A stretch of 64,000 nt of DNA from Acidiphilium rubrum. GTDB lineage: Bacteria > Pseudomonadota > Alphaproteobacteria > Acetobacterales > Acetobacteraceae. Location: NCBI RefSeq assembly GCF_900156265.1, contig NZ_FTNE01000006.1, positions 71,348-135,347 of the forward strand, read 5' to 3'. The first letter of the stretch is position 1. Each line of letters opens with the position of its first letter. This document shows positions 534-4,000 of this stretch, in pieces. The notes below the pieces were generated by a model. The model worked only from the letters and a program-made list of their open reading frames with translations, was not told where the DNA came from and did not search any database. The translations under genes and the position numbers were made by a program.

Positions 534-1193
534 TCAGGCGCGCTTGCGGCGACGCAGAACGAGGCCGAGGCCGACCAGGGCGGTGCCGAGAACGGCCAGC
601 GAGCCAGGTTCCGGCACATTCACGTTGCTGAACTGCAGCTCTGCCGGCGCGCCGTTAGCTTCGAGATACCAGATATTATAGGTCCCCGGGGTGACACTGA
701 AGTTGGTCGGAGTTGCGTTGGTCGGGTAAGCGCTGTTCACCAGCTGATTGGTGCCGTCGTAAAGGCTGAACCCATCGTCATGGGTCACGGTGCCGGAGAA
801 GGCGTGGGTCGTCGTGAACGTCAGTTCAAACAGCGCGACACTGCCGAAATTTCCGGTGCTGAGAACGCTGCTTCCTGAACCACCGTTGTAATAGTTGATA
901 TTCGAGAAGCCTGCTTCGTTATTGGTGAAGCCGGCGAACGTGTTGCTGGACTGTGCGCTGTCGAACCAGTTCGGGATGCCGGTGTAGGTTGCGGTTGCCA
1001 TCAGGTTGCCAGCCCCGATGATCGGGTTGGTCGGCAGGGCCTGTTGGCTGGCATCGCCGATCTGCGCGTTCGGAGTTGCGGCAGTCCAGACGGTAACGTC
1101 AAAGGTCAAGGATGGGTCGGCCTGCGCAGTGACGGCACCAAAGAAAGATGCCAGGGCAGCGGCGCCGGTAAGAAGAGCCAATTTATTAAACAT
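534..1193 (-). CDS. PEP-CTERM sorting domain protein
   Basis: A 219-residue secreted protein. Residues 1-25 form a signal peptide ending AVTAQA. The extreme C-terminus has the complete PEP-CTERM tripartite signal: VPEPGS, a hydrophobic helix (LAVLGTALVGLGLVL) and the basic tail RRRKRA. In this family the signal is recognised by an exosortase in the inner membrane, and the mature protein is linked to exopolysaccharide or the cell surface. The middle is rich in Asn, Thr, Ser and Gly and resembles a beta-sandwich without catalytic motifs. No exosortase is present in this window. The gene is preceded by a sigma-54 promoter and followed by a strong terminator, so it is probably monocistronic. Confidence 0.9.
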   Translation of the reverse strand: MFNKLALLTGAAALASFFGAVTAQADPSLTFDVTVWTAATPNAQIGDASQQALPTNPIIGAGNLMATATYTGIPNWFDSAQSSNTFAGFTNNEAGFSNINYYNGGSGSSVLSTGNFGSVALFELTFTTTHAFSGTVTHDDGFSLYDGTNQLVNSAYPTNATPTNFSVTPGTYNIWYLEANGAPAELQFSNVNVPEPGSLAVLGTALVGLGLVLRRRKRA

Positions 1194-1271: not shown

Positions 1272-1287
1272 TGCAATTGTCGTGCCA
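1272..1287 (-). promoter_or_regulatory. sigma-54 (-24/-12) promoter of the PEP-CTERM gene
   Basis: On the minus strand the sequence reads TGGCACGACAATTGCA, matching the RpoN consensus TGGCACG-N4-TTGCA exactly, with GG and GC 12 bp apart. It lies 78 bp upstream of the ATG at 1193. PEP-CTERM genes are known to be RpoN-dependent in some proteobacteria. Confidence 0.85.
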
Positions 1288-1348
1288 AATTACAAAAGCG
1301 TTTTGTTTCAGGGGGTTAGACATTGGATCGTCCAGCAATTCGATTAAG

Positions 1349-1366
1349 GTGTAAAATTTCCTGACA
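1349..1366 (-). promoter_or_regulatory. upstream activator element of the PEP-CTERM gene
   Basis: Minus strand TGTCAGGAAATTTTACAC, 61 bp upstream of the sigma-54 box. It agrees at 15 of 18 positions with the element at 2108-2125, which has the same position relative to its own sigma-54 box. This is the arrangement expected for an enhancer site bound by the PrsR response regulator of the PEP-CTERM system; the regulator's identity is inferred. Confidence 0.7.
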
Positions 1367-1411
1367 AAAATCAGGTGCGGACTTCGTCTGCGGAGCTGGC
1401 GGTCCCCAGTG

Positions 1412-1429
1412 CGGCCGGTAAGCCGGCCG
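1412..1429. terminator. GC-rich hairpin beyond the pseudogene
   Basis: CGGCCGG and CCGGCCG pair around a TAAG loop, 33 bp beyond the stop of the decayed PEP-CTERM gene. There is no T-run on the minus strand, so it is at best a weak terminator or a relic. Confidence 0.35.
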
Positions 1430-1461
1430 TCTGCTCTTCGTCCAATTCGCGTTACCCGTTG

Positions 1462-1980
1462 TCAATTCAGCCCAGTTTGCGCCGCATCAGCCACGAGATT
1501 TGCCTGAAATAATTGCGGCTGCGTCGTCGTCCGCACCGCGATCAAAAGTCAGCGTCTCGGCGGATGCGAGGGAGAATCGGCCGGTAAAGACTGCTGCTTG
1601 GAATGAAGTGGTGTCATTAGACCGCGTACCGTTGGGCGGGAAGAAAGGCGTGTTGTGGTCACGCAGCGATACGGTGTTGGTGCCGGTCGCGGTGACCCCG
1701 GTTGTCGTCGAGGGGGTCCACCACGTCAATTTGCGATGGCTATTGACGTCATTGACTGCCGTTCCGCCATAGCTGGAATTGTAGGCGGTCAGACCGTCGG
1801 GACCGGGCTTTGGTTGCACCATGTTGGTATAAACACCGTCGATCGGCAGGGTGCCGAAATCCGCACCTGGTGCAACCGTGAAATATGGGCGGTTAGGGGA
1901 TTGATCGTGTCAGCCTGCGCGGAGTTCGTTCCGAACGCCGCTATGGCAGCGCCGATGAGACTGAATGATTTAAGCTTCAT
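1462..1980 (-). pseudogene. decayed PEP-CTERM-type secreted protein
   Basis: The ATG at 1980 starts MKLKSFSLIGAAIAAFG with a signal peptide ending SAQA. The reading frame is lost around 1884-1895; one missing base would restore a frame reading PYFTVAPGADFGTLPIDG and on through 1500. This contains a fibro-slime/PEP-CTERM-like stretch (FFPPNGTRSNDTTSFQAAVF and TFDRGADDDAAAI). A second shift around 1498-1504 is needed to read NLVADAAQTGLN, after which a stop follows at 1462. The usual remainder of the domain and the C-terminal PEP-CTERM signal are absent. A sequencing error could explain one shift but not the missing C-terminus. The promoter elements are still intact. Confidence 0.75.
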
Positions 1981-2030
1981 GATGGCAGGCTGTGCTTGAA
2001 CAACCTTGAACAAACAGCGTATATGCCGTT

Positions 2031-2046
2031 AGCGAAACGAGTGCCA
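2031..2046 (-). promoter_or_regulatory. sigma-54 promoter of the decayed PEP-CTERM gene
   Basis: Minus strand TGGCACTCGTTTCGCT keeps the GG and GC dinucleotides 12 bp apart and the complete TGGCAC half; the -12 half deviates (TCGCT rather than TTGCA). It lies 50 bp upstream of the ATG at 1980. Confidence 0.7.
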
Positions 2047-2107
2047 ATTCAATTCACAAAAGAATATCAGATGGTTATCGATTTTGTCCCATGGCTTATA
2101 TGATGAA

Positions 2108-2125
2108 GTGTAAAGTTTTCCGACA
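2108..2125 (-). promoter_or_regulatory. upstream activator element of the decayed PEP-CTERM gene
   Basis: Minus strand TGTCGGAAAACTTTACAC, starting 9 bp after the cysNC stop codon. It is separated from the sigma-54 box by 61 bp, the same distance as in the copy at 1349-1366. Confidence 0.7.
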
Positions 2126-2134
2126 GAATTGCGC

Positions 2135-4000
2135 TCAGATCGGAAATCCAAGACGGACACGGAGCGCCGCGATCAAACCTTCCGCGAGATCATCGGCCGT
2201 CGATGTGGCGGTCTGCAGATGAAACTCCGGCGCTTCGGGGGGTTCGTAGGGGCTGTCGATGCCGGTGAAATTGCGGATCTGGCCGGCGTCCGCCTTGCGG
2301 TAGAGGCCTTTGGGGTCGCGCTGGCGGCAGATATCGATCGGGGTGTCGACGAAGACTTCGTGGAACAGGCCGGGTTCGACCAGTTCGCGCGCCATCTGCC
2401 GTTCGGCGCGGAACGGCGAGATGAAGCTGACCAGCACGATCATGCCGGCATCGGCGAATAATTTGGCAACCTCGCCCACCCGGCGGATGTTTTCCACCCG
2501 GTCCGCATCGGTGAAGCCGAGGTCGCGGTTCAGGCCGTGGCGGATGTTGTCGCCATCGAGCAGGTAGGTGTGCGCGCCGAGCAGGTGCAACCTGGTTTCC
2601 AGCAGATTGGCGATGGTCGATTTGCCCGAGCCGGACAGGCCGGTGAACCACAGGATCGCCGGGCGGTGGCCGTTGCGTGCCTCGCGCGCTGTGCGGTCGA
2701 TCGTGAGGGCCTGGGTGTGGATGTTGCTGGCGCGGCGCAGCGCGTGGCGGATCATGCCGGCGGCGACGGTTTCGTTGGTCACGCGGTCGATCAGGATGAA
2801 GGCGCCGGTGCGGCGGTTGTCCTGATAGGCATCGAACGCGACCGGGGCGGCGAGGGCCAGGTTGACCAGGGCGACCTCGTTCAAGGTGAGCTGGTCGGCC
2901 GCGAGCTCGTCGAAATTATTGACGTTCACCTTGTGGCGGATTTTCGAGACCACGCCGGAGACACTGGCCGTGCCGATCCGCACGATATAGGGGCGGCCGG
3001 GCAGCAGGGGTGCCGTGCTCATCCAGACGAGATCGGCGGCGAATTGGGCGGCGACGTCCGGGCGGCTATCGGGGGTGGCGAGGATGTCGCCGCGCGAGAT
3101 GTCGAGCTCATCGGCCAAAGTGAGTGTGATGGCGTCGCCGGCGTTGGCGATGCTGCGGTCGCCATCGGCGGTGACGATGCGGGCGATGGTGCTGGTGCGG
3201 CCGGATGCCGCGACGATGACGGCATCGCCGGGGTGGATCGCGCCGCCGGCGACCGTGCCGGCATAGCCGCGGAAATCGGCATCCGGCCGGCTGACCCATT
3301 GCACCGGAAAGCGGAACGGGCCGGTCTGCGCGGTGGCGGGTTCGATCGTCTCCAGATGTTCGAGCAGGGTCGGGCCCTGGTACCAGGGCATTGCGGCGCT
3401 GCGGTGGACCACATTGTCGCCATGGCGGGCGGAGACGGGAATGGTGGTGATGGTGTGGAAGTGAAAGCGGGCGGCGAGGGTTGCGAAATCATGCGCGATC
3501 GCATCGAAGCGGGCCTGGTCGTGGCCGATCAGATCGATCTTGTTGACGGCGAGGACGACGTGGCGGATGCCGAGCAGATCGGCGATGAAGGCGTGGCGGC
3601 GGGTTTGCGTCAGCAGGCCCTGGCTGGCATCGACCAGTAGGATGGCGAGCTGCGCGGTCGAGGCGCCGGTGGCCATGTTGCGGGTGTATTGCTCGTGGCC
3701 CGGCGTGTCGGCGATGATGAATTTGCGGCGGGGGGTTGCCATGAACCGGTAGGCGACATCGATGGTGATGCCTTGTTCGCGCTCGGCCTCCAGCCCATCG
3801 ACCAGCAGGGCATAGTCGATATTGGCACCGTCGGTGCCGAATTTGCGGGAATCGCGTTCGAGGCTGGCGCGCTGATCGTCGGGGATGTTGTCGGTATCGA
3901 ACAGCAGCCGGCCGATCAGGGTGGATTTGCCGTCATCGACCGAGCCGCAGGTAAGCAGGCGGAGCAGGGTGCGGGGTTCGAGCGCGGTCATGTCGTTCAT
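2135..4000 (-). CDS. cysNC: bifunctional sulfate adenylyltransferase subunit 1 / adenylylsulfate kinase
   Basis: A 621-residue two-domain cytoplasmic enzyme. Residues 1 to about 430 form the CysN GTPase: G1 loop GSVDDGKS (19-26), DTPGH (98-102) and NKID (153-156). From about 445 an APS kinase follows with Walker A GLSGSGKS (454-461). CysN hydrolyses GTP to drive CysD-catalysed APS formation from ATP and sulfate; the C-terminal kinase phosphorylates APS to PAPS for reduction or sulfation. Its ATG overlaps the cysD stop by one base (TGATG), so the two subunits are translationally coupled. The length matches NodQ/CysN-C fusions. Confidence 0.96.

Follow-up and report, generated by a model that had tools for sequence, protein, structure and literature searches.

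On the minus strand of the window (the whole 64,000-nucleotide stretch of Acidiphilium rubrum DNA that was analyzed), there are two TGGCAC…GC boxes, and 61 bp upstream of each stands a TGTC-G-A---TTTACAC element. According to the original prediction, 15 of 18 positions are identical between the upstream elements and the spacing is 61 bp in both cases; both statements were confirmed exactly on the sequence. The parts of the two promoters and the genes behind them are as follows.

1349 to 1366, minus strand: PrsR box 1 (Haft motif 1 type), predicted, TGTCAGGAAATTTTACAC
1307 to 1318, minus strand: IHF-like site 1, TAACCCCCTGAA, 1 mismatch to YAANNNNTTGAW, 31 nt before TGGCAC
1272 to 1287, minus strand: sigma-54 -24/-12 box 1, TGGCACGACAATTGCA, 0 mismatches to TGGCAC-N5-TTGCW
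534 to 1193, minus strand: intact gene for a 219-aa PEP-CTERM protein, behind promoter 1
2108 to 2125, minus strand: PrsR box 2 (Haft motif 1 type), predicted, TGTCGGAAAACTTTACAC
2066 to 2077, minus strand: IHF-like site 2, TAACCATCTGAT, 1 mismatch, 31 nt before TGGCAC, the same offset as site 1
2031 to 2046, minus strand: sigma-54 box 2, TGGCACTCGTTTCGCT, with a weak -12
1487 to 1980, minus strand: decayed PA14/PEP-CTERM-type gene, with a start frame from 1980 and a second frame at 1487 to 1822; the C-terminal part and sorting signal are missing

The second sigma-54 box is weaker than the first because it reads TCGC, not TTGC, at -12. PrsR box 2 starts 9 bp beyond the end of a minus-strand ORF (2135–4000), which, judging by eye, we take to be cysN/C-like. 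A strict bipartite pattern with spacings of 55 to 67 matched only twice in the genome (3,976,993 bases in 78 contigs), both times in the window, and the reversed-pattern control at the same spacings gave 0 matches in this 3.98-Mb genome. The 17-nt motif 1 was described by Haft et al. (2006; PMC1569441), where, in the part of the paper available to us, it is separated from a sigma-54 motif 2 by a spacer of mean 62.8 nt (SD 10.6, range 32–92) and PrsR is named as the likely activator. Set against the published text description, both window elements read TGTC-G-A---TTTACA and thus have its TTTACA ending; at both promoters the box lies 61 nt from the 18-mer and contains the -24 GG and the -12 GC. 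Elsewhere in the window, positions 181 to 386 hold two head-to-tail 103-bp copies that are 94% identical, each with a palindrome-like TGGATTGCCGCGCTGCGCTCGCAATGAC; this sequence had no further match within the window at up to 3 mismatches, and the repeat looks like a dispersed intergenic repeat.

Both genes had been called PEP-CTERM type. For the 219-aa protein behind promoter 1 this holds, with 23.6 bits against TIGR02595 (cut-off 16) and 25.5 bits against PF07589 (cut-off 20.7). In the decayed gene, the ATG frame at 1980 and the frame at 1487–1822 are out of phase, neither piece matched any NCBIfam family, and the 1487–1822 frame, which was also without a Pfam match, stops ahead of any PEP-CTERM segment. 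Because its own frame ends before the sorting signal, its PEP-CTERM nature was deduced from homologues of the 1487–1822 frame, which were found in 2 of the 10 other genomes searched in the genus (G302, 55% identity; G192, 47%). These are open PEP-CTERM proteins with tails (246 and 263 residues, stop sign counted), and the one from G302 has a PA14 match (26.1 bits, cut-off 24) in addition to its PEP-CTERM match. Each of the two genes has a perfect element upstream with 61-nt spacing, and both promoters have an IHF-like site at 31 nt (1 mismatch in G302, 0 in G192). Since the homologues keep both the PEP-CTERM tail and the element with its 61-nt spacing, promoter 2 is therefore read as a control region that has been kept while its PA14/PEP-CTERM gene decayed, so that the promoter would have outlived the gene.

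The original prediction suggested a search for prsK, prsR and exosortase genes, and all of them were found in the genome over their cut-offs. PrsR (C25:33161–34480) scored 635.2 bits against a cut-off of 502.6; PrsK lies directly upstream (C25:31149–33095, 428 bits) and PrsT directly downstream (373.1 bits), both over their curated cut-offs, so that PrsK-PrsR-PrsT stand in tandem. Exosortase A (283.6 bits) and RpoN (384.9 bits) are also over their curated cut-offs, and an XrtA-type polysaccharide chain-length determinant and export protein, again over cut-offs, share the locus of exosortase A. PrsR, PrsK, PrsT and an exosortase are thus all encoded in this genome, together with 20 proteins over the TIGR02595 cut-off.

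We therefore looked upstream of these 20 PEP-CTERM genes with a relaxed pair search (up to 4 mismatches in the PrsR-type box, up to 2 in the sigma-54 box, spacing 30–90). A pair was found before 16 of them, compared with a mean of 1.2 and a maximum of 3 in dinucleotide-shuffled upstream regions. One of the 16, on contig C50 (spacing 44, 3+2 mismatches), is probably chance, which leaves a convincing pair before 15 of 20 genes; the decayed window gene, at 61, is additional. The 15 spacings are 41 (once), 49 (four times), 50 (four), 51 (two), 60 (once), 61 (two) and 62 (once), so that 10 pairs fall at 49–51 bp, 4 at 60–62 and 1 at 41. In 12 of the 15 the box has 0–2 mismatches. Two counts go against the model: three pairs rest on boxes with 3–4 mismatches (C36:142734, C30:40961 and C40), and 5 of the 20 PEP-CTERM genes have no convincing pair. 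The relaxed search gave no pair at all for C43, C46:138734, C72 and C46:92142. The last is the middle gene in a cluster of three PEP-CTERM genes (C46:89500–97000, L086); it has the same orientation as, and lies behind, C46:93119, which has its own pair, and it may be read from the promoter of that gene. At C30:40600–41032 (G000, L090), a PEP-CTERM-like tail sits in a 43-residue open frame without an ATG, and this gene also seems to be broken; upstream of it are a weak box (3 mismatches), an IHF-like site without any mismatch and, at a spacing of 49, a sigma-54 box. As a marker by itself, the element at 0–2 mismatches precedes PEP-CTERM genes in 8 of 9 matches (the decayed one counted); at up to 3 mismatches it was rejected as unspecific, with 26 matches versus 23 in the reversed control.

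Two refuting outcomes had been set beforehand, a genome lacking prsR or an exosortase and a pattern absent from the other PEP-CTERM genes of the species; neither occurred. Control of PEP-CTERM genes by PrsK/PrsR and RpoN is well supported, by inference from the encoded partners and the pairs before 15 of 20 genes. What did not survive is 61 bp as a fixed activator-polymerase geometry, since the 49–51 bp class is the commoner one in this genome.

To see how spacing behaves more widely, two sets of pairs were collected. An order-level survey of 299 genomes with a box-plus-TGGCA pattern (spacers 37–67 and 68–98 nt) gave 108 pairs in 34 genomes, 95 of which, in 27 genomes, have GC at -12. A separate exact scan of genome_contigs at spacings of 25–85 matched at least 119 stretches and gave at least 81 pairs in at least 80 loci. 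Among the 81 pairs in the scan matches listed, spacings fell at 41–43, 49–52, 58, 60–64, 70, 72–75 and 82–85, and none fell at 44–48, 53–57, 65–69 or 76–81. Merging the sets (the scan contributing its listed matches) and thinning same-length spacers to <70% identity left 160 pairs, mostly proteobacterial. These 160 listed pairs form a comb with nearly empty gaps and peaks at 41.6 (n=5), 50.3 (42), 61.4 (91), 72.6 (16) and 83.2 bp (6). The Rayleigh R was 0.82 at the best of five periods between 10 and 11, and 5000 one-turn jitters given the same treatment reached a maximum of 0.27; these statistics are very strong for phase without being exact probabilities, because the sites are related by descent and the counts are not independent. 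The distances from sigma-54 box to ATG of the same promoters showed no comb (R 0.11–0.18, n=85). The steps from peak to peak are 8.7, 11.1, 11.2 and 10.6 bp in the listed pairs, and the 41-bp class (n=5 listed) misses a strict 11-bp comb by about two bases; in 3 of its 5 members the IHF-promoter arm is about one turn shorter.

Once pairs that also occur in the scan set were left out, 87 kept order pairs remained, and 85 of them fell inside the scan-derived windows (jitter predicts 46.9, maximum 61). The -12 GC requirement for the order survey was introduced once the data had been seen; if it is dropped, the comb windows contain 100 of the 108 order pairs. The 13 pairs dropped for want of the -12 GC have spacings of 43, 46, 50, 51, 61, 62, 62, 69, 70, 76, 78, 78 and 86, and two kept pairs lie outside the windows, at 69 and 80; the 80-bp pair (G192) also has CGGCA...TTGC at 50 bp. 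For the genome_contigs set this filter was superfluous, since TTGC was part of its search pattern. By record title, the at least 80 scan loci in at least 70 assemblies comprise 41 alpha-, 15 beta-, 12 gamma- and 4 deltaproteobacterial loci, 7 from unclassified Proteobacteria and 1 other, and among the listed scan matches the alpha, beta, gamma and delta loci each show at least three comb teeth. When homologous genes were compared, 8 of 26 pairs differed in spacing class (by -31, -19, -13, -12, -12, -10, 12 and 19, with the sign depending on order); these 8 are only 33–43% identical and three include the doubtful 80-bp site, and therefore no clean recent one-turn step has been caught. The 61-bp spacings of the window are one tooth of this 41/50/61/72/83 comb. 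The conserved quantity is helical phase rather than 61 bp, and an IHF site, which the original prediction had not noticed, probably fixes it.

The evidence for that site came from the spacers themselves. An alignment of the listed 61-class spacers, anchored at the sigma-54 box and made without a motif in mind, gave tAA....Ttgaatt, the reverse complement of the IHF consensus WATCARXXXXTTR. At up to 1 mismatch, 104 of the 160 listed spacers contain YAANNNNTTGAW, where shuffles gave a mean of 26.5 and a maximum of 34; it sits 29–33 nt before TGGCAC in 80 of the 160 (shuffles: 2.95, maximum 9). None of 300 scrambled consensuses of equal composition reached the count or the peak of YAANNNNTTGAW. 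There are 115 one-mismatch matches in the listed spacers, of which 80 lie at 29–33, 9 at 20–22 or 40–42, and 26 are scattered; the last number is about the shuffled background and counts against the model. The opposite orientation of the consensus is enriched at 17–19 nt (25 of 160 listed), and the two orientations are almost mutually exclusive (forward 80, reverse 25, both 1; Fisher p 2e-7), from which we infer that the site may have been flipped, with both orientations sharing a bend centre at about 19 nt upstream of TGGCAC. A looser setting places a positioned site in 132 of the 160 (shuffles: 25.2, maximum 34); the other 28, which have none even then, also count against the model. Where the site lies at 29–33, the arm from the upstream element to it is 19–20, 29–31 or 40–41 nt in 79 of 80 listed cases and 56 nt in one. 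The arm from the site to the promoter is 30–33 nt, less often 20–22 or 40–42, in the listed pairs, so that both arms are mainly quantised. The window's own genome, which was the one searched for IHF genes, encodes the two subunits: IhfB scored 130.7 bits (cut-off 115), and IhfA scored 131.3 bits against NF001401 (cut-off 111) but 116.9–117.6 against TIGR00987, whose cut-off is 120.25. In the window, the consensus with 1 mismatch lies between the activator site and each of the two promoters, as in IHF-assisted promoters.

PrsR and PEP-CTERM genes accompany the pairs in other genomes. A PEP-CTERM-like tail lies within 1.7 kb of 79 of the 95 order pairs with -12 GC, with a literal PEP in 67, compared with 12 of 108 order pairs in a reverse-strand control under a looser rule. 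PrsR was scanned at E<=1e-150 in 58 genomes, made up of the 34 with any pair and 24 without, the latter hand-picked to span genera and including the three surveyed members of the genus that had given no match. Among the genomes with a -12-GC pair, 23 of 27 had PrsR over cut-off; the figures were 3 of 7 where all pairs had failed and 3 of 24 where there was no match. At this threshold, which would miss weaker relatives, PrsR was not found in G065, G093, G143 and G263. The G093 pair looks like a chance match; the other three genomes hold six comb-spacing pairs (L258–L260, L312 and L322–L323), two of which (L260 and L323) lack GC at -12. A divergent PrsR, incomplete genomes or another activator could each account for comb pairs without a PrsR match. 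In G258 (C244), two boxes about 218 bp apart (L319 and L352) precede the same PEP-CTERM gene, and the proximal one alone is at comb spacing with a -12 GC; in the part of the Haft paper available to us, a repeated motif 1 is also reported for R. rubrum (PMC1569441).

Taken together, the sequence patterns suggest, with a probability of roughly 0.82, that every such pair of elements belongs to the PEP-CTERM/exosortase regulon as a sigma-54 promoter activated by PrsR, spaced in whole turns with an IHF bend. PrsK would phosphorylate PrsR, and PrsR would bind the TGT-N11-ACA dyad. IHF, to judge by the sequence and position of its site, would bind between the dyad and the promoter and bend the DNA, and the PrsR AAA+ ring would thereby reach sigma-54 polymerase at TGGCAC...TTGC and open the promoter. 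Since loop and bend have to stay in register, the distances on either side of the IHF site would vary for the most part in steps of about one helical turn. A broader claim, which we hold with less confidence although we still favor it, is that PrsR promoters across Proteobacteria share one quantised architecture of PrsR box, n-turn arm, IHF bend, m-turn arm and sigma-54 box, in which arms would change by whole turns only and the IHF site could be flipped about the same bend centre. If this were true, the regulon would offer a natural ruler for enhancer-promoter geometry on the scale of whole genomes, and it would evolve by whole-turn insertions and deletions. The most serious competitor, which we consider unlikely, keeps the PrsR-sigma-54 promoter as published and explains the central YAANNNNTTGAW as a second PrsR half-site, the site of another nucleoid protein or intrinsically bent AT-rich DNA. 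The IHF consensus is indeed loose and AT-rich, 28 of 160 listed sites have no YAANNNNTTGAW-type element, and the IHF site is a prediction from sequence; against this explanation, equal-composition scrambled consensuses fail, both IHF subunits are encoded in the window genome, and an asymmetric consensus occurs in both orientations, nearly exclusively, as if flipped round one centre.

We also considered whether the equal spacing in the window has no geometric constraint behind it and simply goes back to a single ancestral promoter that was duplicated in tandem. The two genes adjoin within a run of three 61-bp promoters, the third at contig position C48:70492–70575, and two of the three share an identical 18-mer. 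However, the two window spacers are identical at 24 of 61 positions, hardly more than the 19.2 ± 4.3 among 40 non-redundant 61-nt spacers from the matches listed; a recent duplication is therefore not evident, and an old one is possible. The spacer comparison gives no support to duplication as the sole cause, and that reading is already disfavored by the comb, which extends over Alpha-, Beta-, Gamma- and Deltaproteobacteria (class labels from record titles) in at least 70 assemblies; we regard it as very improbable. The original description of "two independent regions" is accordingly uncertain: the genes are neighbors in a three-promoter run, and their spacers show no recent duplication. That the boxes are a chance resemblance and no promoter at all might be suggested by the broken second gene and its weak -12, but with two matches and zero control matches genome-wide, the comb, and a pair before 15 of 20 PEP-CTERM genes, we consider chance all but ruled out. 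A PrsR-activated sigma-54 promoter with whole-turn spacing and an IHF bend thus remains our preferred reading. The whole-turn comb is strong sequence evidence that the proteins bound to motif 1 and those bound to the sigma-54 box touch one another, and the IHF-like site, by its position, points to a candidate missing player in the PrsK/PrsR control of PEP-CTERM genes that was predicted in 2006 (PMC1569441). The 160 listed promoters with discrete arm lengths provide a natural dataset for enhancer-promoter looping, and the practical rule of box, allowed spacings and IHF site finds PrsR promoters and spots broken or orphan ones, such as promoter 2.

Several known systems resemble these promoters in part. 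In the open-access literature searched, with subscription literature mostly outside it, we found no report of an IHF site or a spacing comb for the PEP-CTERM regulon. As in the system of Haft et al. (PMC1569441, as far as the available part of the paper describes it), there is a motif ending in TTTACA, a sigma-54 box at about 62 nt, single PEP-CTERM genes and PrsR/PrsK/PrsT in the genome. Unlike that account, which gives mean, SD and range only, the spacings here are discrete whole turns with a positioned IHF-like site; its main text contains none of the terms "IHF," "integration host factor," "bending" or "phase," and has "helical" only in the title of a reference. The pepA gene of Aquincola tertiaricarbonis (PMC9850573) is likewise a PEP-CTERM gene with a TGGCAC -24/-12 promoter, there mapped and with a predicted enhancer, and its RpoN dependence was shown. 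The available part of that study, unlike the present analysis, does not treat spacing geometry or IHF, and it calls for further experiments to clarify the regulatory mechanism. It also reports that an epsB2 insertion mutant next to prsKR was rescued by epsB2 and not by plasmid-borne prsK or prsKR, a result that says little either way about PrsR.

Whole-turn clustering of loop lengths is shared with the 61 Vibrio qrr enhancers (LuxO-sigma-54), whose natural loop lengths cluster about 11 bp apart (PMC4740811, in the part available). Those enhancers have loops of about 80–120 bp and tandem LuxO sites within one genus, whereas the PrsR promoters have one PrsR box at 41–85 bp and an IHF-like site, and they occur in several proteobacterial classes. 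In IHF-assisted RpoN promoters, as described in the available part of PMC7962754, IHF binds between enhancer and promoter at the consensus WATCARXXXXTTR. An IHF-type site between activator site and promoter is common to both, here as a prediction, and the usual enhancer-promoter distance there is 100–140 bp, whereas here it is shorter. By these comparisons, the window promoters appear to belong to the known PrsR/sigma-54 type, and the combination of IHF site and comb would be a newly seen property of that type.
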